Below are positions 49,443-64,000 of a stretch of DNA of 64,000 nucleotides, one piece after another. The stretch is from Plumapathes pennacea (lineage: Eukaryota; Cnidaria; Anthozoa; Antipatharia; Myriopathidae): positions 26,647,069-26,711,068 of the forward strand of contig OZ038463.1 of the NCBI GenBank assembly GCA_964036295.1. The letters are read 5' to 3'. Under the pieces are notes generated by a model. That model was given only the letters and a program-made list of their open reading frames with translations, was not told the origin of the DNA and made no database searches. The position numbers were made by a program, and so were the translations under genes. The first letter of the stretch is position 1. Each line of letters starts with the position of its first letter.

Positions 49443-51360
49443 CACTCCCCTGTTTGAATACGGAGTAGGCAAACATAAACAGAAACTACAGTTCATTAAC
49501 GGATAGTTCGGCAATTCGCCGTGCTGCGTTGATCGCAGCGTTCCTCTTGGGCCTCGCCTCTGGATTCTGGGGTGGTGGTTCAGGTGCTGCGGGAGCTTCT
49601 CTACCGCATGTAAGCTCGAGGGGGTGGAGGTGCTAAACAGCTTGTTCAATGAACGACTTTCCAGCGCGCCTTTCCATCTCGCGGCCCGTACTACTCCGTC
49701 TGTGCCCACTATGAGCTCTGTCACTATCCCCAGACGCCATTTGCCCCGGTTTCTTTCCTCTGACTTGATGATCACAACATCTCCAACATGCGGCACAATA
49801 CATTTATCTCTCCTTTTGCTCATGTGTCTTTCCCGGAGTAAGCGCAGGTATTCTCGGGTCCACCTTGACCACATGGCGTCTTTGCATCGCCCCAAGTACT
49901 TGTAACGCTTGTGTAAATCGGTGTTCTGAACCAGATGGGGTTGTGGCTGCAGTAGGTGGCTGGGTTGCATGAAGAGCAATGAATTTGGGGTACTGCACGT
50001 CATCTTCCACGTACCCAAGGGGTCGGTCGTTGAGGGTAATCTCGACGTTCAGGAGAACCCTTTCCAGCTCCTTCCAGCTCAGAAATCCGTTGCCAATGAC
50101 CTTGTAAAGAGCTGCTTTCATCAGGCCCACCATTCGTTCAAATTGGCCTCCCCACCACGGGGCCCAGCTCAAATTGAACTGCTACCTTATGCCGTTCTTG
50201 GCCAGGTAACCCTGTAGTCGCTCGTCACGCATCACCGCTTTCACCCACTTCGCTGCTCTGATGAACGTCGCCCCGTTATCCGAGTATATTCGCTCAGGCT
50301 GGCCACGGCGGGCAATGAACCGTTCCAGGCTGTCCAGACATTCTGTCATCTCCAGGTTGGGCAGTAGGTCGAGGACATTCCCCTGGTGAAGCTGCATGCA
50401 TATAGTAGCACATATGCCTTGCGTTCTCGACCCTTGGAAATGTGGTAGCGCAGTGGCCCAGCGTAATCTATCCCGATGACTTGAAACGCGGTAGTTCCTT
50501 CTGTGCGATTGGTTGGCAGGTTACCGGGTGGTGGCGCTGCGTATGCTATGGCTTGGAACCTCTTACATCCGTGACACTGCTTGATTCCTCGCTTCACGAG
50601 TCGCCTTAGTCGTGGAATCCAGTGTCATTCTCTGACCTTGGCCATGGTAAGACCTACACCGCCATGGAGCGTGGCCTTGTGCACGTGTTGAACAAACTTC
50701 TCTGCCAAAGTTGAGGAGTCGGGAATATAGATTGGGTAGTGCCCTTGCACTCTACCTCTGCACTCGAGTACTCCCTCATCATTTCCATGTAGATTCAACT
50801 GGAGGCGATCCTCTTCCAGCTTCTCTGCGCCTCGGTGTTGGGCTCGTAGTACCCAGAACCGCTCCTGTTGCTCAATCTCTTCAGTAGTGAGTGGTCCTCT
50901 GGTTTTGGCTTTTGGACTTCTGGCGTTGCAGGCACATCTGAAGATCCACGTGCTAACCTGTAAGGTTCGCCAGTAGGTGGTCTTGGAAAGGAGGTTGTCT
51001 AACTCGTTGTTTGCTGCTACTGCTAAGCAAATAGTCGCCTTCGCCTCCGCAGTCGATTCTGCACTGGCTTGGGTCACGATGTCTGGTGGCCACTGTGCAC
51101 GATTGCTCAGACACTCTGGTCCGTTCCACCACAGGCGGGTTTCGGCGTTCACAGGCCTGCCTCTGCTGGCAGGGTCAGTGGGGTTGTCTTGGGTAGGCAC
51201 ATGTCTCCAGTTGACATCATTGTGTTTCCGAATCTTGCGAACTTGGTTTCCAACAAACTGCTTGTAGTCTCCTGTACCGCCCACCCAATTTAGGGCAACA
51301 CTGCTGTCAAGCCAACAGTGAAGAGACGTTATGGGAAACCCTTGTATTGTATCCCGGACG
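49443..51360 (-). pseudogene. BEL/Pao 1 RNase H end, integrase and C-terminal domain
   Basis: The frame 51524-50625 gives the RNase H tail and the integrase zinc region start (VGGTGDYKQFVGNQVRKIRK, HVHKATLHGGVGLTMAKV). The frame 50597-50346 has KQCHGCKRFQ and TAFQVIGIDYAGP (first Asp). The frame 50397-50182 has ERIYSDNGATFIRAA (second Asp). The frame 50172-49804 has WGGQFERMVGLMK (Glu), and 50018-49428 has the DUF5641-like end (CIVPHVGDVVIIKSEERNRG). All catalytic residues survive but in four frames, so no integrase is made. Confidence 0.85.
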
Positions 51361-52651
51361 TTACTCAGCAGATTCACGGCCATATGACCAGACACTAACT
51401 CCCGGCGAGAAATTAAAGAGTCCTTGCTTCGTGGGGACAAGACCTTGGTTGACTCCGGTCGGTTGCGTGATAACAGCATATACAGCGGCGCCAACGCCCT
51501 TGCTGCTAGCGTCTCCAAAGGCATGAAGGGCGATCTCCTCTATAGGCTCTCGGTAAGTTGCCAGCGATCTTGGAGTGTTCACTTGCTGGGGAAGACTGCT
51601 CTCCCATTTCTGCCATTTGTGTACCAGCCCTGCGGACAATGGTGCATCCCAACCGCACTTCTCGTCACAGCTCTCGCGATATAGTAGTTTCCCTTGTAGA
51701 ATGGTTGGCGCCACAAGGCCCAGGGGGTCGTAGATCTTGGCCACTTTGCCTAAGATGCCTCTCTTCGTCGGTTGAGCGGCACTTGTTGGGAAGACAACTC
51801 CGATTTCGTCAGTGTGCTTATCCCACTTTAATCCGAGGACGCCACACTCTCTAGGCTGTACACCCCACTGCTGCTTGGCGTAACTCAGGTCCTCCTCGCT
51901 CTGATTCACTTCTGTCAGTTCTAGCTCTTTCGTGTTAGAGCTCCACTTGTGCAATTGTAAGGTTGCCTTGCTGAATATCTTGGTCGTGATTTCCTTCTTG
52001 TGCGCTTGTTCCACAGTTGGTCCACCGGTCAGCAGGTCATCAACATACAATTCCCGCTCAATTTCTCCCACGTACTTGGGATGGTCGGTTCGGCAAACGT
52101 TCAGATGATGTTGAAGTACACCACTTAGTAGGAATGGCGATGGCCCCAAGCCAAAGAGTGCCCTGGTAAACCGTAACGTGCACACACGTTGGGGGTCCTT
52201 GGCGTCAAGCCAGTGGAACCTCAGTGCGTCTCTGTGCTTGGCTCGGATTCGCATTTGAAGAAATGCCTTGTGGATGTCACCGGCGAGGGCTACTGTATGG
52301 AACGTCCCCCTGACAAGGACCTTCCAAAGTTTGTTTTGCAGCGGTGGTCCGATATCGAGGCAATCGTTCAGGGAAGGCGCAGAGTCGTATGCTTTGGCAG
52401 ATGCATCATGAACGATCCTCATCTTAGTAGTAGTTTCCGCGTTCTCTCTTACGACCACCTTGTGGGGTATATAGAACTCTCCCTATGGGCGGCATCTCTG
52501 CTTTCTCCACGATTCCTTCCTTCAGCTGGTCCTGGGTAATGGCATCGTATTCGTCTAGTCTCCCGGTCTTCTTCAGACGCTGCACCAAGTTCCCCAGCCT
52601 CTTCAAGCTCCCTGCTTTGTTTGATGGCAAGGGGGGTGGTCTCCCTTCCAC
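51361..52651 (-). CDS. BEL/Pao 1 reverse transcriptase / RNase H start
   Basis: The frame 52458-51361 has MRIVHDASAKAYDSAPSLND, VALAGDIHKAFLQMRI, LFGLGPSPFLLSGVLQHHL, ELYVDDLLTGGP (YVDD), IYDPLGLVAPTILQGKLL and LHAFGDASSKGVGAAVY (RNase H). A shift near 52440 separates it from the frame 52651-52424 that encodes the RT N-terminal linker. It copies the genomic RNA. Confidence 0.88.
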
Positions 52652-53229
52652 GGGAGTCCGGTCTCATACCAGCCTTCCGGGTCACAATGGAGCTGTTCCA
52701 GGAACTCTGTGTGCACAACGCTCTGATCTCCGCTAGGTTTGTCTTCGAGACCAAGGACATCCATCCGACAAAGTTCCTCATAGTTGGTCCTGGCAGTCTG
52801 CGTCAGGAACATGTTGTCCAGGTTTGCCTCTCCCGATGACATTATGGTCCAGCCAAAGTGTGTATGTTCAGCGACGGGTTGACCCATGACTCCGGTTCGC
52901 TGGGGTTTTCGCGTCTTGATCTTAGTGTACTCACTCGCCCCCAGGATAATGTGCACAGGAAGCTGGCTCTTGGTGTCCGTATCCTCCACATATACTCCTT
53001 TTAAGTGAGGATAGCTGCTGATTAACTCTTCATACTTTGGATTGTCCACAGGCAACAGTTCTCCGCGGTCCACTCTCGTAGCACACACGGGAATGACGTA
53101 CTTTCCTTTCGTATCGCTCACTTGGAGATCGTATGTCTTGACGCGCTTCGTAATCATGCCAACAATGGTCTGAATCCGACGCGTGAGCGTGTGCGAAGGC
53201 ACGAGTTTCAGGTGATCCAATATGTAACC
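52603..53229 (-). CDS. BEL/Pao 1 protease-associated region (DUF1758-like)
   Basis: Continues in the same frame as gag after a TAA at 53230-53232, which follows the retropepsin site directly. It contains TYDLQVSDTKGKYVIPVCA, VHIILGASEY and HTHFGWTIMS, typical of the BEL/Pao peptidase region. The frame is left at about 52603. Confidence 0.8.
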   Translation of the reverse strand, partial: GYILDHLKLVPSHTLTRRIQTIVGMITKRVKTYDLQVSDTKGKYVIPVCATRVDRGELLPVDNPKYEELISSYPHLKGVYVEDTDTKSQLPVHIILGASEYTKIKTRKPQRTGVMGQPVAEHTHFGWTIMSSGEANLDNMFLTQTARTNYEELCRMDVLGLEDKPSGDQSVVHTEFLEQLHCDPEGWYETGLPWKGDHPPCHQTKQGA

Positions 53230-54583
53230 TTAAGCATAGGATACGGTCGCGCCTGTGTCCAACAATGCCCGACAGGTAACACCATTCACCTTCACGACAA
53301 CAATTGGGTGGCACACCTCCCCCTCGTGTGCGGCTGTCATACCTTCCCCTCCGTTGACCACTGGTTCACTTGCTCTTTCACAGATGGACGAGTGGTGTTT
53401 CCCCTTGCAATGATAACAGGAACTGCGGCTGCGACACTGGGCTGCGTGGTGTTTGCTTCCAGTGCAATTAAAGCACAGCTTCTTCATTTGTAATTTCCTC
53501 CTTCGCTCAGCGGGTAACGTGACCTCTTGACACTCGGATGATTTGTGCGTCACGTCTTCACAGTAAACACAACATCCCCGCATTGGCGGAATTTGTTCCC
53601 TGGCATAAAGACTTCTCTGGCGAGGCGGCGCTGGTTTCTCGTTGCTTCTGCTTGATATCTCTACTAGGTGTATCGCCTTCCAGTCTTCGAGGGCTTGCAA
53701 TAGCTGCGTAAAGCCCCAATCCTGCCAGCCCACCTTATTGTTGACCAGCTCGGCTTTTATTCCTGGCAGCTTGTCGATAACCCCACGAACCATAGACCTG
53801 CAATCTAATAATCTCCCTAAGGTTTCCAAGTACTGAACATTGTAATTCAGTGTCTGGCAAAACATGTGTATTTTGCTTGGTTGGGTTCCGGTTACAACTG
53901 GCAAGGCCTGGATGTTCTGCACATACGCTTTAACTATCTCGCTCACCTTCCCGTAATTGGTTTTCAAAATGTTCTTGGCCCGTTCATATCCCTCTGTCGT
54001 GAAAGGAAGACTGTCGATTCCTTGATAAACATTGGGTTCAAGCAGCTCCTTTAAATGCGGAAACTTGGTCACTGCTGCTAGGTCCGTGGAATCGATCTCT
54101 GCTTCGAACTTATTCCAGAAGGACAGCCACTTCTCATACGTTCCGTCGTATTTAGTGATCACCAATTTCGGCAATTTAGCCTGGCTGCTTTTCGCTGGTT
54201 TTGCGGCAGCTTGCTCTGCCAACTGCATCTTCGCTTTCTGCTCTAGCTTTTCTTTCTCAAACTTGAGCTCCTCTTCACGTTGTCGAGCGGGTAGAATGTT
54301 CTCTTTCTTGCGTTTCTCGTGTTATATCGTCGTCTGCTTCGTCGAGTCTCTGTTCGATCTCCGCCCCCCATTTCTCCACATCTTCGATGCTTTCTCCCGC
54401 CGTGAGTTTGGCTTTCTCTGCCTGCAGTTTAAGCTCTTCCAGCGAAGTCACAACTTTGCCCAGAGCTTCTTTGTGTCGTAGTATCTTCTCTAGGTTTCCC
54501 TTCTCCACATACGGTTTAGTTTTACTCCTGGTGAGTTGTAATAGCTGGGATTCCGTTTTAAGCTTTGCGCTGATCTCCTCCAT
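53230..54583 (-). pseudogene. BEL/Pao 1 gag with zinc knuckles and protease start
   Basis: 54583-54275 encodes a coiled-coil start (MEEISAKLKTESQLLQLTRS). After a shift at about 54280, the frame 54228-53230 has the DUF1759-type capsid (LPKLVITKYDGTYEKWLSFW, KFPHLKELLEP), Cys-rich knuckles (CVYCEDVTHKSSEC, CFNCTGSKHHAAQC, CYHCKGKHHSSIC) and the retropepsin ALLDTGATVSYA, then TAA. Gag assembles the particle. One frameshift and one stop lie inside the polyprotein. Confidence 0.85.
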
Positions 54584-54644
54584 CTCAAGTTACTGGTTTT
54601 CTGGATCCTTCTCCTTTAGTTGTCCCAAGTCGGAGGTGCCACAA

Positions 54645-54900
54645 TGTCGGAAATATAGCTCGTTCCAACACACAGTTCACAATCAAAACATATTTAACCA
54701 AAACTCACTTCTTATTTTCACACGAGGTACACAATTCTTGCTGGAGCGAGATGAAAAAAAAAAGACAAACCATGCTATGTTGCAACAGCAATGACAGGCT
54801 CTAATCTGATTGGCTTACACAACGCTGAACCAGACAACAATGAATCAATCAGAACTATGGATAATTTGGCTTCATGTTACTACCGCTAACATTTCTCACA
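54645..54900 (-). repeat. 5' LTR of BEL/Pao 1
   Basis: 256 bp, 'tgtcggaaatatagc' to 'atttctcaca' (TG...CA on the minus strand), followed by CTTG. Confidence 0.9.
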
Positions 54901-54904
54901 CTTG

Positions 54905-56068
54905 GTCTTCACCTGGACATTTCTGACAACACCATCTGAACCTGGGAAAACTTCCTGCATTTGCCACGGGGTGCATTGTAATCCACTAACAGCACGATGT
55001 CACCAACACTCATCTGTCGTCCTGTGGACTGCCACTTTGCCCTTCTCATCAACGTCGGTACATACTCTCTGATAAATCTTCTCCAGAAGTGTTGTGCAAG
55101 GCTCTGCACAAACTGGAAACGTCTTCTGGGGTTCCTGGACTCTTCAAAGGGGCCTTGCGGGACCAACGATGATGCGCAACCAAGAATAAAATGATTTGGA
55201 GTGAGCGGTTGCGGGTCATTTGGATCATTGGAGGGGTAACCCAAAGGTCTGCTATTGACAAGGGTCCTCACCTCAGCAAACACTGTCGCCATCTCGTTCC
55301 AGGGCAGCACTTGGGTTCCTACTGCAACACGAAGAGCTCGTTTCGTTTGCTTGATTAGGCTCTCGTAGATGCCTCCTTGATGAGGGCTGAGGAGGGTGGT
55401 GAAGATCTATCGTATCTTATGGAGGACAGCGAAATCTTCAAGTTGCTTTCTGCCTTCCACGGCCAACTTCCTGAGCTCCTAAGCTCCGACAAATGACTTT
55501 CTGTGGTCTGAGATGATCGTCGTCGGCCATCCATGGTACGACGCAAAACGTCTAAGGGCTTGGAGGAAGGCTTCGCTGGATGGGTTTTCCACTATCTTGA
55601 GGTGGATCGCGCGTACAGTTGCGCGTGTGAACAATGCTCCCCAGGCTTTAGCAGACTTGTTCCTGCCAACCTTTAAGTTGAATGGGCCAAACAGATCAAC
55701 TCCTGTGACTGTGAACGGAGGGAGAACGGCTTGACCCTCTCTGGGGGCAGATCGGCCATCAAAGTCGCGTGAGGTGGCTGGCGTAGCTTGCAGCAGACTG
55801 TACAATTCCTGGCAATGTACTTTGTAAGGTTTTGTCCACGCACGATCCAGTACTGTCGGCGACTTTCACTCTCTCTGCCAGTCTCCAAGATCTGTCTGTG
55901 CCTCTACAACCCAGTAGTGCTCAGCAGATGTGATCTCCTCGGGCTGCAACGGTCCACTCCGGTGTTCTGTTGGGTCATCACGGCTTGCTTTCATGTTGTT
56001 CAGGAAGCGCAGAGTGTAAGCAGTGACTCGCATCAGCTTGGTCCAACTTGAGTAGGCTTGCGGGTCAA
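54905..56068 (-). pseudogene. BEL/Pao 2 integrase, frameshifted
   Basis: The frames 56072-55866 and 55888-55673 carry the zinc region (YIARNCTVCCKL). The frame 55805-55479 has PPFTVTGVDLFGPFNLKVGR (first Asp) and IISDHRKSFVGA (second Asp; the usual N-G after D is changed to H-R). The frame 55310-54909 has the end of the core and the C-terminal domain (AEVRTLVNSRPLGYP, MSVGDIVLLVDYN). Its last residues are at 41795-41855, beyond nested element 1. Multiple shifts disable it. Confidence 0.85.
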
Positions 56069-56962
56069 TCACTGGTGTCGTACGACTGACAGCACCAATG
56101 GCCTTTGTCTTCTTTCTGGGTCGTCTTTCACTGGCTCGTTATCTCCCACTGGCCATTCATCTTTGCTTTTCTTCAGGAAGGATGGTCCGTTTTTCCATCG
56201 GCCGCCGTTCATTTCCTCAACAAGGATCCCGCGACTCAGATCGTCAGCTGGGTTGAGATCGGTGGATATGTACTTCCAGGAACTTGGGTCCCAGGTTGAT
56301 TGGATCTCTGTAACGCATACTCCGACAAAAGCCTTCAGTGTGGCAGATTCGGTCCTCAGCCAGTGGAGAACAATCTTGGAATCTGACCACAGTGTGATGG
56401 AGGATGGTTTGGTCTTGAACTCGTCATGGATCACTTTTGCCAGTCATGAGGCAACCAATGCAGCCATGAGCTCAAGCCGAGGAATTGTAGTCTGACGAAG
56501 TGGAGCTACTCTTGCCTTGGCTGAGACTAGCTGGACTTCTGGGCCATTCGGGGTGGGCCACAGGAGGTAGGCTACTGCTCCATATGCAGCTCTGCTTGCT
56601 TCAGCGAAGACATGCAGCTCAGATGGGCCAGACACTGTCTCAGGCTGTAGGCATCTGGGGAATCTGACGCTCTTCAGCTTCTCGACTTCTCTGAACAAGT
56701 TGCTCCAGCGCTCACTCATTTCATCAGGGAGGGGGTCGTCCCAGTCGTACTGCTTTGCCCGCCAAATATCCTGGAACACGATTTTGGTCTTGATTGTGAC
56801 TGCAGATGCCAATCCCAGGGGATCATACAGCTTGGAAATGCTTGACAGAACTGTTCTCTTGGTGAGCCTCTCGACCTTGATCTCCTTCACAGCAAAGTTT
56901 AACTTGTCGTTGTGTGGGTTCCAGCCAACTCCTAAGGTCTTGATACCTTTCTCTCCATCCAA
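56069..56962 (-). pseudogene. BEL/Pao 2 RNase H region
   Basis: The frame 56962-56444 has TKRTVLSSISKLYDPLGLAS and ELHVFAEASRAAYGAVAYLL (RNase H, with AEAS where DAS is usual) and ends at a stop after LELMAALVAS. The frame 56434-56069 continues with ITLWSDSKIVLHWL and WKYISTDLNPADDLSRG. One stop and a shift lie between them. Confidence 0.82.
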
Positions 56963-57016
56963 GTTGATGCTGGTTAGTGCGTCTTGTTCTGACTTCGCTC
57001 CAACCCCACTCTGTAC

Positions 57017-58417
57017 TTAGTAAGGGCTGATATTGGACTTTGCGATGGGCTTTGTGGCTTCAGGCTCCGTAACATTGGTTTCTGTGACGTCAGGTTCTCT
57101 TGCCAGCTCATGTCGGACCACTTGTGAGGAGCATAGCCATTCCTTGATCTTGAAGCTGCCTGTAGCTAGCACTCTGTCCAGCTGTTTGGTACGCTGGATG
57201 GCTTCTTCTGGTGTTTGGCAGGAGTGTATCAGGTCATCCATGTACCGGTCTCGCCTCAGTACAACTGCGGCGTCTGGTTTGTCGGCCTCATTATCTTTGG
57301 CAATCTTGAGCATAAGGAAGCTCGTCATATCGGGTGACGGCTTGTTGCCAAAGGTAACCCTCTGTAAGACTTTGGGGTACCTAGTCTGATCCAGATTTCT
57401 CCAGAGGAATCGGTGGACTGAAGTGTCTTCTTCTGGAAGGCAAATCTGCAGGAACATCTTAGAGATGTCTCCAACGAAACCAACGGGCTCTTCTCGAAAA
57501 GGAAGAAGGACTCCCAGGAGATTTCCAATCAAGCCTGGGCCTTTGTGCAGGAAAGAGTTCAAGGAAACACCTTGATACTGGCATGCTGGATCAAATACGA
57601 TTCTTAGGGGCGTGCTCTCCTTCTCTGGTCGATATATCCCATGATGAGGCAGATAGTAGACTGGCTTGGTGTCCGCTTCTAACTCTTCCTTGCTCAGAGG
57701 TCGGGCCCAGCCATTCTTCTTGTAGTCCATCAACATGTCTTCGTACATCTTGGCCTTTGTATTGTTCTTCAGGAGGCTCTTTTCCTGCGACAGCAGTCTC
57801 CTTTCGGCCAGAGCGTAGTTGTTTGGCAGGAGACATTTATCCTTCTTCCAGGGGAGGCCAATCGTGTATCGAGTGCCCTGGTGTTCACAAGACGCCTCCA
57901 TCAGCTCCATTGCTTTCCTGTCGTCGGGTGACATGGCCGGTTTCGGGTAGGAGCAATCTGGGGCTTGTATCCCAAATGTCTCAAGATCGTAGAATTTCTC
58001 CAAGTTCAGCGGCTGTACGAAACTTATGGAACATATGGTGGGTATTCTCCTCTGGTCGTCCGATCCGATGACAAACCATCCCAACTTGGTCTTCTTGCCA
58101 ACGGGTTCAAATGGCTGACCTCGACACGTCTCGTCTTCTGCGTGCAGGTGACTGTACTGCACTCCCAGTATGAGGTCAACCGGACCAGCCTTGTGGGGGA
58201 ATTCCACATCTCTTAAGTGGGAAAACGATTTCAGCCACTGGAGGTTTAGGGCAGGTACGCTGAGAATTGTCTTCTCTATCTTGTGCGCTTCTATCTTAAA
58301 TTCTTCACTGCGATCCAAAGCAGATATACAGTAGCTGACTCTTCTGCTCTTCGGCTGCTCCACTCTCTCCTCCAACAACTGCCAGGTCGATTCGTTCTCT
58401 TTTGCCTTGCAATCCAA
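57017..58417 (-). CDS. BEL/Pao 2 protease region and reverse transcriptase
   Basis: A 466-codon frame: the peptidase-associated part (VDLILGVQYSHLHAED, KTKLGWFVIGSD), linker, then RT motifs YYLPHHGIYRPEKESTPLRI, FDPACQYQGVSLNSFLHKGP, VGFVGDISKMFLQICLP, VTFGNKPSPDM and DRYMDDLIHSC (YMDD). It is uninterrupted. It would act as the element's polymerase, but flanking frames are broken. Confidence 0.9.
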   Translation of the reverse strand: MDCKAKENESTWQLLEERVEQPKSRRVSYCISALDRSEEFKIEAHKIEKTILSVPALNLQWLKSFSHLRDVEFPHKAGPVDLILGVQYSHLHAEDETCRGQPFEPVGKKTKLGWFVIGSDDQRRIPTICSISFVQPLNLEKFYDLETFGIQAPDCSYPKPAMSPDDRKAMELMEASCEHQGTRYTIGLPWKKDKCLLPNNYALAERRLLSQEKSLLKNNTKAKMYEDMLMDYKKNGWARPLSKEELEADTKPVYYLPHHGIYRPEKESTPLRIVFDPACQYQGVSLNSFLHKGPGLIGNLLGVLLPFREEPVGFVGDISKMFLQICLPEEDTSVHRFLWRNLDQTRYPKVLQRVTFGNKPSPDMTSFLMLKIAKDNEADKPDAAVVLRRDRYMDDLIHSCQTPEEAIQRTKQLDRVLATGSFKIKEWLCSSQVVRHELAREPDVTETNVTEPEATKPIAKSNISPY

Positions 58418-59450
58418 GGGCTTTAGCGAAGTCTCGTTGGATTACTGTGGTTCCTGCTCCGCTGTCGATTAGGGCGTTTCCCTCGCGAACTCTACCATTT
58501 TCTGCTCTGAAGCGAGCTCTCACCACTGGCATGATTCTGTTGCGGTCCAAAACCGATGCGACTCCGCTCGACGTGGGTGGGTCAGTATGCAGGAGGGGAT
58601 GGTGAAAGCGATTGCATCCATTCTTCTCGCATCTCTTCCTTGATCTGCAATCTCTTGTCATGTGGCCTTTGATCAGACGCGAGAAGCATAGCCCGGCATT
58701 CCTTACAGCATCGAAGCGTTCGCTCACTGTGGAGTTGGCCAGTGTGGAGCAATCTGGGACCTTGTGCTCTCCCTCACACACGTAGCATTTTTTCCTGCTC
58801 ACATTCCTTTGTGTAGTGTGAATTCCTCGTCGACTTTCGCGGACGATTCCACTGCCTGAATCGGTCTTGTTATGGCTCCTTATTTCTTTCTCCACGTCTC
58901 CGAAATCTGGATCGAACTCGGCCTTGACGCGTTTCCGGACGAAGTCGCTGATGTGCTGCAAGGTTGGAATCTGGCCTTTCTCTCGAATATCAGCAACGAC
59001 AGATTTCCATTTTTGGACCAAGTGATCAGGAAAGCGCATGACAACTTTTCTAAGGTTGTCATTTTGCGTTGAGAGCTGCGTCATACTTGATTTGCTGGAT
59101 AGTTGCCAAGCAATTAATGATGTCGAGTGAAAACTCTCGCAAGGCTTGTCAGTTGTTCTTGTGGATTCTCTCTCCCTTCGTTAGCTTGTTTATCACTGAC
59201 CTAGCTATCTGACTTGGCTGTCCAAATTGTTCCTTTAGAGTCTTCAGCGCTGTGGCATACATGACGCCTTTCGACCCAAAACCAGAAATAGCTCTTTCGG
59301 CCTCGCCAACCACGTGCATTCTGAGCTGAATCATCCTCATGTCGTCAGTAGATAAGAAACGGGGATCCTGGAACATTTTCAAAAATAGGGCTATAAAACG
59401 CTGATCCTTACAAATTTTCCAAAAAAATGAGGAATTTATGGAATGTTAGG
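58305..59450 (-). pseudogene. BEL/Pao 2 gag and protease active site
   Basis: Gag capsid (DUF1759-type) begins upstream of 59382 (frame readable to about 59450: FFWKICKDQRFIALFLKM), continues MFQDPRFLSTDDMRMIQLRM and VMYATALKTLKEQFG, and shifts at about 59150. The frame 59084-58305 has MTQLSTQNDNLRKVVMRFPD, Cys/His knuckles (CYVCEGEHKVPDC, CFSRLIKGHMTRDC) and the retropepsin NALIDSGAGTTVIQ. The 5' LTR expected to the right is not seen; the virus-like segment begins instead. Confidence 0.8.
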
Positions 59451-59506
59451 AATGCAAACGGAAAAAATTGAATTTTGGCTTAAGAGCATGGAATTCTTAA
59501 TCAAGT

Positions 59507-59845
59507 ATGGAGAATAGAAATATTGCCAATATTATGAATGAACCTGTTGATGATGAGAACGTTATTTTATTTAAGGTAAGGGAAAGGGCATATAAAAAGA
59601 ATAAAGATTATTATTGTAAACATAAAAAGTTTAAGTATACTTGTAAGCTTTGCAAGGGGTTGCAGATTTGTGAACATAATAGACACAAGCAATCGTGCAG
59701 GGAATGTGGCGGCGATTTGTTTTGTGTACATGGTAAGAGGAAATATTATTGCCGAGATTGTGGAGGGAAAGGTTTTTGTGAACATGATTATCACAAACAC
59801 AGTTGTAAAGTTTGTAGACAAAAAGGCTTGTATCCAAGGAAGTAA
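59507..59845 (+). CDS. Cys/His zinc-ribbon repeat protein
   Basis: 112 codons from MENRNIANIMNEPVDD. After residue ~35 four units of C-x-H-x6-C-x2-C occur: CKHKKFKYTCKLCKG, CEHNRHKQSCRECGG, CVHGKRKYYCRDCGG and CEHDYHKHSCKVC, spaced 16-18 residues. Similar CEH...C..CGG arrays are known from giant-virus and protist genomes, where their function is not established; zinc binding is likely. Highly basic, with no membrane segment. It is convergent with the large minus-strand gene, with a hairpin 6 bp after its stop. Confidence 0.8.
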   Translation: MENRNIANIMNEPVDDENVILFKVRERAYKKNKDYYCKHKKFKYTCKLCKGLQICEHNRHKQSCRECGGDLFCVHGKRKYYCRDCGGKGFCEHDYHKHSCKVCRQKGLYPRK

Positions 59846-59850
59846 ATTTT

Positions 59851-59880
59851 TAATTCTTAACGTTTTTTTTCGTTAAGAAT
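59851..59880. terminator. Hairpin with T8 loop between convergent genes
   Basis: 'aattcttaacg' (59851-59861) pairs perfectly with 'cgttaagaatt' (59870-59880); the loop is eight T. It lies just after the plus-strand stop and before the minus-strand gene's 3' end. It could end transcription in both directions; that role is inferred. Confidence 0.6.
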
Positions 59881-59887
59881 TATAGAA

Positions 59888-59983
59888 AAAGATTTATTAA
59901 AATAAAAACCTAACGTGTTAGAAACCTACACTTCTAAGATTTTTCCCCAAAAGATTTATTCAAATTAAAAACCTAACGCGTTA
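59888..59983. repeat. Direct repeat, 2 x ~33 bp
   Basis: 59888-59920 and 59950-59983 share 'aaagatttatt.aaa.taaaaacctaacg.gtta' with few changes, 62 bp apart, in the gap between the convergent genes. Confidence 0.75.
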
Positions 59984-60084
59984 TTGATCGTTATGAAAAT
60001 TACTTTGGTTAGCGTTTTAATTAGACAGTGTGATTTTCTATTTCAACTTGTAAATAGAAAATATGAAACGGTGTTAATAATAGG

Positions 60085-61823
60085 CTATCTAAATAACCAC
60101 CAAGAAATTCCGCCAACTGCTATCGCTATTGCTGCTAATCTATCTTCATGAACTTTAGAGCTTACTGAAGAGTTAGTTTTCTCATCAGGTGATACTTTTT
60201 TGTCGCTGTTAACTTTGGGTCGTTCATCAACGTCTTTTGTTAGTTCTTTGTCATTGTCTGTGTCTTTATTTTTTTCATCATCTTTATCATTTTCATTAAC
60301 TGAACTATTAGACCCAAATTTCATAACGTTTGTAGTTTTTTGTAACTTATTATTATATCCTTCAACTCTTTCAGTGTTAATAACCAATTCAGAAGGGAGT
60401 AACCACGTTCCTGGTGTTATGGCAAAGTCTAATCTTACTTTCGCGTTTTGAACAGCCAGTTGATATCTTGAAATACTTTCGGCAATGTCTTCTTCGATCA
60501 CGGCGCTTTCGAATAAGATGAGCATCTCTTGTTGTGCTTCTTGGGCCCCTCCTCCATCTCCAACGATGGGGTTTCTAACATTTGCTTGGGCTCCCAAAAC
60601 GCAATAAACGAAGGCTTCGATACTCCTATTAAGTCTGCCAAGTACTGCTTTGGTGATACCATTGCCGTTCATTAAGGCAAACCATTGATGTTGTTTTCCA
60701 CCATGAGTGTCGTTTCTTATGAAGGATATTATTGGCATTTTACCTTTTGACTCAACTTTTTTGTCGTCAAACCATTCGTCTTTGAAATGGTACTTCTTAT
60801 CACCTTCAGAATAAAATTTAAGGTAATCGCTTGGCCAGTTGTTATACCTTGAGTCGCAAATTATTTGCTTGTCTCGCGATTCGTTCCAGATGTAAAGATT
60901 TCCTAGGCCTCCATTTCTTCCATGTTTCCAACGGAAGTCTTCGTTTACGCTAATTCCAAACTCCTTACACAAGGCTTGGTACTTGCCTTTGTTTATGGGA
61001 TTATTTTTTTTATCAAAAGCGTTTGTGTTTGGAAGGGCTACTTCAAGCTCGTATAATACCCTTCTGATAGTAAAGTAAACGTGAAACTCGATCAAACTTT
61101 GAACCACAAGGTCATAATCTTCATCAAGTCCAATACCGCAACCACAAGTAGCACACCAAACGGCAAAACTGAGTTGTTGTGGCCAAAAAGTTATGTCAGG
61201 CCCTTTTTGCCATCTGTTTGCGTCTTTCGAATTTGAAAGCCTCACTTGTGAAAATGTCTTTCATGTTAGCTATGAAGAAGGAAGATTCTGAAACGTAAAT
61301 CTTGAGGTTTGTTGGTATTGGTTTCGTCGGTTTGTTAAAACTAGTTGGTCTAATTGCGTATTTTTCATCCGTCAAAAACAAAGTTATTGGAAATGTGTTT
61401 TCTTGTCCAAGATCTTCTATTAACTCATCTGAAAAACTATCTCTATCAACGAGGAAATTTCCATCTTTCCAAATGACTCTCGTTGCTCCAGGTCCATTTT
61501 TCAAGTCTATCCACTCAATGGAGTATTTTTCGTCTCCATCACCTTCGTCAACGGCGATGAATTTATTTTCTTTAGCGTTTGGAAATTGTTTCTTAAAGTT
61601 TTTCATTGCTGTTTTTCCCATTTTGATACGTTCTTCTCGTTCCTCTAGTTCCTCATGAGTTGGTACCTTTATGGGTCCATCACCGGCTGCGTTATGACTA
61701 AAATCACTAAAAGAGTTATTTTTTTTTGTTATTCATGCCAGTATATCCCCCGCGATTTAAGCCATCATAACCCCATCCGTATGTGTTTAGATTATTCCTT
61801 TGATCAAAGAATAGCTTTTTCAT
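60085..61823 (-). CDS. Large uncharacterised virus-like protein, ~570 aa, two frameshifts
   Basis: It starts MKKLFFDQRNNLNTYGWGYD at 61823. A T9 run (61719-61727) shifts the frame, and the next frame continues with SFSDFSHNAAGDGPIKVP and 61621-61196 (IEWIDLKNGPGATRVIWKDG). A second shift at T5 (61204-61208) leads to 61245-60085: ITFWPQQLSFAVWCATCGCG, FHVYFTIRRVLYELE, IEAFVYCVLGAQANVRNPIV, RYQLAVQNAKVRLDFAI, TPGTWLLPSELVINTE. An Asp/Lys/Glu linker and a C-terminal membrane segment (LAAIAIAVGGISWWLF) follow. I recall similar proteins in cnidarian genomes without a function. A structural (capsid- or envelope-associated) role is a guess from size, context and the C-terminal anchor. Confidence 0.65.
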
Positions 61824-61856
61824 ATTCTATATTTTGAAGTATAGAATATTTAACTT

Positions 61857-62619
61857 TTAAGCCTCGTACGCCGGCGGTGCAGTTGGCGGCAACCTTGTGT
61901 CGCGGGGAGTGATTCTAATGTTTATGTCAACATCGAATCCTTTTAGGATTTCTTCAATAGTTGAATGGCTTCTACTAGCTCTCCAGTCAACCTTCCCAAG
62001 CTCGAATTTCTTTCTAAATTTACTCCCTTTTTTTGACTTCTAATATTTTTCTTATTTGCGCCTCGTAATTGTGTCTTTCTTCTTCAATTTTTTTGAACTC
62101 CTCTTCTGAGATAGTTTCGTCTGATAGGGCTTTATTAACCATATTTCTAATGCTGCTAATTTTTGCTTGACTTAGTGATATTAACTTTTCATCGATAATC
62201 AATTTTTTGACACACTCATTGTTAAGGTGAATTGTCACAAAAGATGTGATTCCTAACAATGCTCCAACCCCGATGAGTGGAACGCCTACGACTAATCCAA
62301 ATCCACTTCCAGAAAATCCAGCACCAGTTATTGATAAGGTCGCTGCACCCGCAGATGAGAATGTATTTACGTTTCTTAACCTAGTGTGCTTTTTAAAGCA
62401 CTTGGATTGTTTTTTGATGTTATCTTCTAAGTTTTTGTTTTCATAGTTTCAATTATTCTTGAGCATACAGATAACCTATAATAATTAGAATCCTTTGGCA
62501 CTTCAGGATAAATTCCATCTTTTTTAATATATTCGCCCGTAGATTTTTTATCATCACCTCTTAAGTTAAATTTTAAGGTTCTGTGTGATGAATTATTATG
62601 TGAATTGAAGAGTGTACCA
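61857..62619 (-). CDS. Membrane/coiled-coil protein with PTAP/PPxY late-domain end, two frameshifts
   Basis: Three overlapping minus-strand frames follow each other. 62619-62427 includes GEYIKKDGIYPEVPKDSNYY and YRLSVCSRIIETM. 62446-62020 has two hydrophobic Gly-rich segments (AGAATLSITGAGFSGSGFG, GLVVGVPLIGVGALLGITSF), then a coiled coil (SQAKISSIRNMVNKALSDE). About 62035-61857 includes WRASRSHSTIEEIL and ends RLPPTAPPAYEA. The frame changes sit at A/T runs (62432-62441 and 62028-62034). PTAP recruits TSG101 and PPxY recruits NEDD4-type ligases in budding viruses. No ATG opens the first frame, which overlaps the end of the upstream gene, so the start is unsolved. Confidence 0.6.
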
Positions 62620-63004
62620 CTTCATGGGGCGTGAATGATAATTCCTTATTTACTAAAGCTAGTTCTATTTCCATATTATCGATTACCGAAATACTTTCGT
62701 TTATGGGCATCTTAATTCTCCTAAAGTTGTCTCTTACAATTAAGAAAGACTTTGACTTCAATACTTTTTTATAAATGTTTCTTTTATTGTCGGTGTTAAT
62801 ATATACTTTACTATCATCGATGAAGTTGCAAGTTGCTATTGTGGAGAGGTCTCTAGTTCTTGAAACTGAAGCGTTAACTATCTCTAAGTATTTCGCGCCA
62901 ACTATTCTTTCACCTAATGTAAACTTAGATTTTAGGCTCTTAATCCCGCCACCCGATCCACGTTCACCAACATTTAGTTTAATAAATAGGTTGGTTTCGT
63001 ACAT
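62573..63004 (-). CDS. Tandem paralogue A, 143 aa
   Basis: Starts MYETNLFIKLNVGERGSGGG; then GERIVGAKYLEIVNASVSR, STIATCNFIDDSKVY, SFLIVRDNFRRIKMP and ends IHIIIHHTEP. The predicted pattern is mostly beta strands with a conserved [RK]I.GAKY.E core. Intact. It shares start, core and end with the two genes upstream. No known domain. A small structural protein is plausible given copy number and packing. Confidence 0.75.
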   Translation of the reverse strand: MYETNLFIKLNVGERGSGGGIKSLKSKFTLGERIVGAKYLEIVNASVSRTRDLSTIATCNFIDDSKVYINTDNKRNIYKKVLKSKSFLIVRDNFRRIKMPINESISVIDNMEIELALVNKELSFTPHEVVHSSIHIIIHHTEP

Positions 63005-63048
63005 TTTTATTGATTTGTTTCTTTTGTTTTTAAATTCTTAATACGATA

Positions 63049-63493
63049 TTAAGGTTGAGTGTGATAAATAACTAATTGTAAGAAACTATGACGAACGTCC
63101 GCTTTAGAAAATCTACCAAGGTCTAGCGGTATTAGAGTAACTTCAAATTCGTTAACTACATCTGTGTTAGTTGGCACCTTTATCATGGGTAAGTCGTTTT
63201 TAAAGTAAAGAAATTTTTCATCCCTAAAGACTTTTGTGTATTATAAAGTCCTTTATGTCATCATCGAAATGAATTTTAAAGTTTGTGTATTGCCTGGTGT
63301 CATCAGTCAAGCTACAAGAGACCACCATATTAAGTTTATACAATCTAGATTCTGAGGCGCTTTGAACCTCAAAGTACTTAGCACCAATTATTCTTTTTCT
63401 CAACTTAACCTTAGCCCTAAGATAGAGCGCGCCAATATTACCATTCCATGTTTTTTCACCGCTTAGTTTTAATAAGAAGTGAGTTTTATACAT
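63049..63493 (-). CDS. Tandem paralogue B, one frameshift
   Basis: The frame 63493-63224 runs MYKTHFLLKLSGEKTWNGN, KRIIGAKYFEVQSASESR and MVVSCSLTDDTRQY. At T4 (63232-63235) the frame shifts, and the other frame continues RDEKFLYFKNDLPMIKVP to VIYHTQP and TAA at 63049-63051. The total would equal its paralogues in length. 45 bp separate it from A. Confidence 0.7.
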
Positions 63494-63552
63494 TTTTTTC
63501 TAGACTACGCGATAGCCCTTAGATTGATGATTAGATAGATTACGAGTAAAAG

Positions 63553-63981
63553 TCATGGTTCTGTATGGTATATTACTAAGTGAACGATTCCAGCTTTTAC
63601 TTCACCATCAGTGAAACGGTCACCTTTATTGATAATAGTCACTTCAATGAAAAAATTATCAATTGTCTCTTTCTCTCTTTTTATCAATTTTTTATTATCT
63701 GGAATAAGTGTTTTTATCATTAGGCAAGAGTTGCTTCTGAAAGCTTCTTCTGAAACGTTTCCATCTTCATCCACATTAGTGTACAAATTACTATTGTCCA
63801 TTAAATCGCAAGATATAGATGTTCCGTTGTTAGCAGTTACTGAATCCATCGAATTTAGTGTTTCCATATACTTAGCACCATATATCCTCTTATCCGGCTC
63901 AACTTCTGCTATCATACTAATTGTTCTTCCATTTAAAACTCTACCCTTTTTTATTTTTAGTAAGAAATGTGTTTCATACAT
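63553..63981 (-). CDS. Tandem paralogue C, 142 aa
   Basis: Starts MYETHFLLKIKKGRVLNGRT; then DKRIYGAKYMETLNSMDS, GTSISCDLMDNSNLY, SCLMIKTLIPDNKKL and ends VHLVIYHTEP. Intact, 60 bp from B. A run 'AAAGAAACAAAAGA' on the minus strand precedes its start, and 'AAAAGAAACAAA' precedes A, a possible shared promoter element. Confidence 0.75.
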   Translation of the reverse strand: MYETHFLLKIKKGRVLNGRTISMIAEVEPDKRIYGAKYMETLNSMDSVTANNGTSISCDLMDNSNLYTNVDEDGNVSEEAFRSNSCLMIKTLIPDNKKLIKREKETIDNFFIEVTIINKGDRFTDGEVKAGIVHLVIYHTEP

Positions 63982-64000
63982 AATTATCTTTTGTTTCTTT

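Follow-up and report, generated by a model that had tools for sequence, protein, structure and literature searches.

A Polinton/Maverick-type element within a BEL/Pao gag gene of Plumapathes pennacea, with a candidate -1 frameshift leading to a late-domain-like tail

An insertion within a BEL/Pao gag gene

The gene-packed end of the 64,000-nucleotide stretch analyzed here (the window; positions 26,647,069 to 26,711,068 of contig OZ038463.1 in assembly GCA_964036295.1 of the antipatharian Plumapathes pennacea, or C2:26647069-26711068 in our coordinates) makes up the left third of an element of 14,441 bp, which runs from window position 59347 to C2:26720855. The element is almost certainly of the Polinton/Maverick type, because its gene set (A32 ATPase, family-B DNA polymerase [PolB] and rve integrase) and its ends, formed by terminal inverted repeats (TIRs), match that group. 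Both ends start with AGTAGATAAG and are bordered on each side by TCGTC. The TIRs are about 205 bp long, with arms identical in 179 of 214 aligned columns (gaps, 9%), and the alignment of another genomic copy, L003, to the window likewise stops at 59347. When the element and one TCGTC were removed in silico, the BEL/Pao gag frame was open for 314 residues, 249 before the join and 65 after it. Because the gag frame reads through once these are excised, we place the element inside the BEL/Pao gag gene; its own rve integrase presumably performed the insertion. A scan of the gag piece, made before the boundary had been located, gave a DUF1759 match at 21.6 bits, below the curated cut-off of 25.4. 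The features of the window's part are collected in Table 1.

Table 1. Coordinates of the element's features and its target within the window
Feature	Position	Strand	Remark
Interrupted BEL/Pao gag, insertion target of the element	59152..59346	-	Reads through the empty site; 314 amino acids
5-bp target-site duplication TCGTC	59342..59346	.	Partner copy at C2:26720856-26720860
Polinton/Maverick-type element, in-window part	59347..64000	.	Remainder extends to C2:26720855; total 14,441 bp
Left terminal inverted repeat	59347..59551	.	Starts AGTAGATAAG; partner at C2:26720652-26720855
Small protein in convergent orientation, repeated Cys/His motifs	59507..59845	+	No Pfam match at E ≤1
Main protein, C-terminal piece with hydrophobic tail	60085..61245	-	Frame broken in the window's copy
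Main protein, N-terminal piece	61196..61621	-	In a different frame from the C-terminal piece
Second frame lacking an ATG, ending in late-domain-like PTAPPAY	61857..62039	-	Five residues separate PTAP from the stop
Hydrophobic glycine-rich protein, encoded in the first of the two overlapping frames	62020..62448	-	
A-run (plus strand: T-run) in the alignment column where the slippery heptamer stands	62028..62034	-	Frame relation +1 in this copy
Paralogue 3 of the jelly-roll-like trio	62573..63004	-	
Paralogue 2	63049..63493	-	Two frames in the window's copy: 63224-63493 and 63049-63240
Paralogue 1	63553..63981	-	142 amino acids; predicted all-beta, 8 main strands

An initial annotation of the window had proposed an integrated virus-like element in the place expected for the 5' end of the second BEL/Pao copy. 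The TIRs, the 5-bp duplication and the gag frame open across the empty site support this. The junction is biological, but it lies at 59347, where the TIR and the duplication begin the element, and not at 59450. The region is indeed AT-rich, its GC content of 34.5% being the lowest among 13 sampled 4.6-kb tiles (none of which covers 55201-59400). The shift is weaker evidence than had been claimed, being mostly a contrast with the GC-rich BEL sequence: the stretch from 50001 to 59000 has 45-54% GC per kb, and five other 1-kb windows have 31-34%. Nor is the loss of repeats distinctive, as two other tiles likewise have 0% repeat coverage.

Other features of the surrounding sequence were also seen. 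Window positions 51364-59346 comprise two consecutive BEL/Pao copies, with DUF1759 and Pao peptidase matches at 51364-54321 and a weak reverse transcriptase match at 57020-58441; it is the gag of the second copy that the element severs. Immediately right of the element, ORFs (open reading frames) at L032:1853-2967 (C2:26722852-26723966) match DUF3504 above its cut-off and Phage_integrase slightly below it, a combination like that of Crypton-type tyrosine recombinases. An ORF at window 4974-5819 matches the PIG-M/PIG-U mannosyltransferase families and is likely a host gene or exon.

Gene content and relatives of the element

The ORFs in the window's part are compact and intronless, and all lie on the minus strand except the convergent plus-strand ORF at 59507-59845. 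Between 59385 and 64000 there are five stop-to-stop ORFs of at least 140 amino acids; 200 dinucleotide shuffles had 0.045 on average and never more than 1. This arrangement is as the initial annotation had described it, but some of its genes are pieces of split frames, those of the main gene and of paralogue 2. The spacing of 34-60 bp that it reported applies just to the three paralogues, which are 59 and 44 bp apart, the gaps elsewhere being at least 120 bp. The main protein is conserved, about 540 amino acids long, and has a hydrophobic tail. The three small tandem paralogues look jelly-roll-like. For the convergent small protein, zinc binding would be a guess from its sequence motifs.

Right of the window, the Pfam scan covered 14 of the 17 ORFs listed in the stretch L031, omitting three plus-strand overlaps, and six of the ten listed in L032, omitting the other four. 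Three of the markers that the initial annotation had proposed looking for right of 64000 are present, each of them between the TIRs. The first is an A32-type ATPase (Pox_A32, E 6e-14, 52.5 bits, cut-off 22.8). A family-B polymerase match (DNA_pol_B_2, E 9.5e-10, 38.4 bits, cut-off 25.8) was found in L031:7321-8202 only, a frame that also matches Endonuclease_7 (E 6.3e-6, above cut-off). The profile scan gave no PolB match in the frames adjoining it; because of their packing, we assign them to the polymerase, so that the neighboring frames of C2:26716821-26720071 are presumably part of the same protein. The rve integrase match, on the opposite strand, covers profile positions 3-101 of 102 with an E value of 1e-5, and its 26.1 bits are below the curated cut-off of 32.6. 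With E values up to 0.5 admitted, none of these 20 ORFs matched a viral protease family. There is no invariant cysteine in a 196-amino acid protein family (five members), and L031:53-1045, which adjoins the paralogues, gave no match by sequence search alone.

Relatives of the element are numerous in the 290 Mb of genome (24 contigs) that we searched. The counts are lower bounds in which fragments are counted separately and scoring is restricted to the best candidates: at least 117 matches for the C-terminal part of the main protein, 94 for paralogue 1, 133 for a 330-amino acid frame adjoining the paralogues, 151 for the ATPase and 150 for the 196-amino acid protein, with many of the last two in a single tandem array on contig C9. 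Among the ATPase matches listed, a same-strand match lies 3.9-9.0 kb upstream in 21 of the 30 best main-gene loci; the closest is 10-15 kb off in L015, L018, L020 and L029 and 35 kb off in L013, and for L003, L014, L024 and L030 none was found. In a protein collection, 414 relatives of the main protein were found at E ≤0.001, the best 120 of which share one source and are without names. In a tree of these 120 and the window's protein, the latter falls together with P0001, P0002 and P0003 (support 1.0), and the remaining 117 lie outside this group.

A search with the element's first 124 bases returned 23 matches, which by position pair into seven elements, the window's included, spanning 9.3, 11.7, 14.4, 14.7, 16.8, 22.7 and 61.6 kb. 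In each of the other six, two or more of the gene families are matched. The target duplication is exactly 5 bp in all seven and 6 bp in none. Because the six other elements each have a 5-bp duplication of their own, we rejected an assembly chimera at the junction. The broader alternative, that host genes or a chimera mimic a mobile element, could appeal to the seven in-window ORFs of the element, none of which has a Pfam match above its cut-off. It is contradicted by the duplications and the empty site, and the TIRs, the many copies and the hallmark genes count against it as well; we give it practically no credence.

Two relatives are unusual in their layout. Across C9:9090029-9484646, dozens of matches to the ATPase and 196-amino acid genes recur with a period of ~4.1 kb, many with equal stop numbers, in a tandem array of ~390 kb built from a fragment of such an element. 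At C2:27503590-27565172, a distance of 61.6 kb separates two matching TIRs, both flanked by the same 5 bp (TCACG); this element has probably been enlarged by later insertions. In the window itself, positions 59855-59990, between the convergent genes, contain a hairpin (TTCTTAACG/CGTTAAGAA) flanking a T-run, and two 35-base direct repeats that are 77% alike and contain TAACG(C/T)GTTA; each strand also has AATAAA-type signals there.

Second reading frame and late motif of the membrane-type protein

Downstream of the paralogues, the glycine-rich hydrophobic protein of the window's copy is followed, in another frame, by an ORF ending in LPPTAPPAYEA. Among the 30 best-scoring main-gene copies, PTAP or PSAP occurs near the stop of this ORF in 27, and 26 have exactly P(T/S)APPxY; L012 has PSAPPAH plus a PPEY instead, and in L018, L024 and L026 there is no PTAP or PSAP near the end. 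The late motif appeared in none of 300 shuffles of the window region, a comparison to be read knowing that the motif was selected post hoc, after it had been seen. From its sequence, we consider it rather likely that the late domain is functional. In L012 (C2:25152555-25156667) there are two PSAP near the end, the terminal motif being degenerate and the other PSAP lying 14 residues earlier, as if one had taken over from the other.

How the second frame is reached was examined in 27 of these 30 copies, all from the same genome; the window's own copy, L001, is itself damaged. A long upstream frame overlaps the second frame in 22 of the 27, in 19 of these with a -1 relation and an overlap of 97-142 nucleotides, and there is no such overlap in L006, L014, L021, L028 and L030. 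The second frame lacks an ATG in 21 of the 27. Overlap length alone is no proof of a frameshift, because the main gene also has -1 open runs of such length (median 36 codons, maximum 61, 300 sampled). The heptamer AAAAAAC (13 copies) or AAAAAAG (11 copies) is found at one aligned column in 24 of the 27 copies, and in 22 copies such a heptamer is in register for a -1 shift, although that of L021 lies off the aligned column. Of 233 stretches six columns wide, the one formed by the six A of the heptamer is the most strongly conserved, the column having been chosen because A-runs align there. The copies form six clusters at 85% identity (median pairwise identity, 0.68), and the -1 relation recurs in each. 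Measured by codon position in 13 copies, variability ahead of the site is 0.14/0.09/0.26, the pattern of the first frame; it is a flatter 0.24/0.22/0.31 in the overlap and 0.18/0.37/0.24 past the first stop, the pattern of the -1 frame. Retroviral -1 sites of the A-AAA-AAC kind combine a heptamer, a long -1 overlap and a second frame without a start codon. All three are seen here; unlike at the retroviral sites, no stimulatory RNA structure was found and the product would be a short tail, not an enzyme. On these patterns we somewhat favor a programmed -1 frameshift as a candidate.

The two frames of the Polinton/Maverick-type element might instead be joined by slippage of RNA polymerase on the A-run rather than of the ribosome. 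Runs of six to nine A in most copies, the missing downstream structure and the presence of both -1 and +1 relations would fit polymerase slippage, but many copies have only A6, 13 of the 27 runs end in C, 22 of the 27 copies have a heptamer in exact -1 register, and -1 predominates among the overlaps; we hold it to be quite unlikely. Shared decay, or a recurrent homopolymer assembly error in a formerly continuous gene, would leave the late motif real and explain the frame split alone. The split main gene and paralogue 2 of the window's copy are in keeping with this, as are the continuous frames of L014 and L021. Against it, L005, L007, L013, L015, L016 and L019 have a stop-free main gene of 559-599 amino acids and yet show the -1 split, the -1 relation is repeated in all six clusters, and in the two reference copies measured, the first frame runs on without a stop for 34 and 35 codons beyond the site. 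Decay or error therefore appears unlikely.

The reading that brings these results together, a Polinton/Maverick-type element in gag in which a -1 frameshift would add a tail recruiting ESCRT (endosomal sorting complex required for transport), is in our judgment probable. A number of observations weigh against it. Three of the 22 overlaps are +1 (L001, the window's copy, L010 and L029), although L002-L004, near relatives of the window's copy, have the -1 relation; L014 and L021 have a single continuous frame (248 and 226 amino acids); and the heptamer is missing from the aligned column in L004, L021 and L023. The overlaps are A-rich and also contain other X-XXY-YYZ strings, and AAAAAAG is a weaker eukaryotic slippery site than AAAAAAC. 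Downstream of the heptamer, none of the nine copies folded showed an excess of RNA stability (z -0.98 to 1.59, with a tool that excludes pseudoknots). In the 13-copy set, variability is higher in the overlap than upstream of it, and a closer 5-copy set shows only first-frame constraint in the overlap. The model of the main protein is weak and mostly helical (pLDDT, the predicted local distance difference test, 58), and neither a major capsid protein nor a protease was identified by Pfam scans and structure models. The motif and frame analyses covered only the 30 copies, and the target duplication differs in length from that of known relatives, as set out below.

Comparison with known elements and proposed mechanism

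Vertebrate Mavericks share with the present element PolB, ATPase and integrase, TIRs ending in AGT, and compact intronless genes (PMC8097293). Intact vertebrate Mavericks have 6-bp target duplications, whereas those here are 5 bp; and their genes form two modules on different strands (PMC8097293), whereas the window and L031 genes are nearly all on one strand. The three tandem jelly-roll-like paralogues and the late-motif tail also set the present element apart. The label "unclassified" given initially is not supported, as gene set and ends are Polinton/Maverick-like. Because the duplication is 5 bp and not 6 bp, we file the element as a variant sharing the group's gene set and mode of working and not as a standard member. 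The TDD-4/TDD-5 elements of the Ginger2 group share a Gypsy-like integrase and 5-bp duplications; in the available part of their description they are DNA transposons with such an integrase, with PolB and ATPase unmentioned, and the element here has both (PMC2836005).

Adintoviruses likewise share PolB and an rve integrase, and the preprint describing them reports KnotInFrame hints that some Penton genes may shift -1 into an alternate C-terminus (PMC11071296). There the gene is Penton and some alternate ends are Cys-rich, whereas here a hydrophobic protein would acquire a tail ending in P(T/S)APPxY. The terms "late domain" and "PPXY" occur 0 times in the preprint's main text. This Penton suggestion is the nearest published hint we found; in the portions of open-licence literature covered, nothing beyond PMC11071296 joins Polinton/Maverick elements or adintoviruses with a frameshift and a late domain. 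The late domain of Ebola VP40, PTAPPEY, resembles the tail in that PTAP and PPxY overlap in one short stretch; VP40 is an RNA virus protein with the motif in its N-terminal domain, whereas here the motif is C-terminal, in a second frame of a DNA element (PMC6357148).

The evidence for the frameshift and the late domain comes from sequence, from which we infer ribosome slippage at the site, binding of the tail to relatives of Tsg101 and Nedd4, and particle formation and budding. One part of the element would encode replication and packaging (PolB, ATPase and integrase) and the other a presumed structural block consisting of the jelly-roll-like trio, the hydrophobic membrane-type protein and the ~540-amino acid main protein. 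On the membrane-protein mRNA, the majority of ribosomes would terminate in the first frame, while a minority would slip -1 at A-AAA-AA(C/G) and yield an isoform with a C-terminal P(T/S)APPxY. This tail would recruit Tsg101 (ESCRT-I) and Nedd4-type ligases, and particles would then bud through membranes or go to vesicles. We propose only tentatively, and with more doubt than confidence, that a Polinton/Maverick-type lineage uses a -1 frameshift to set the share of membrane protein carrying an overlapping late domain, its particles leaving cells or entering vesicles by ESCRT budding.

According to PMC8097293, no viral particles of Mavericks have been observed. If the proposal is true, the late domain in the second frame would be sequence evidence for budding particles of such elements, Tsg101 and the Nedd4 family would be named as host partners, and DNA elements and RNA viruses would both have come to combine a frameshift with a late domain. 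Its 5-bp duplication sets this lineage apart from the described vertebrate Mavericks.

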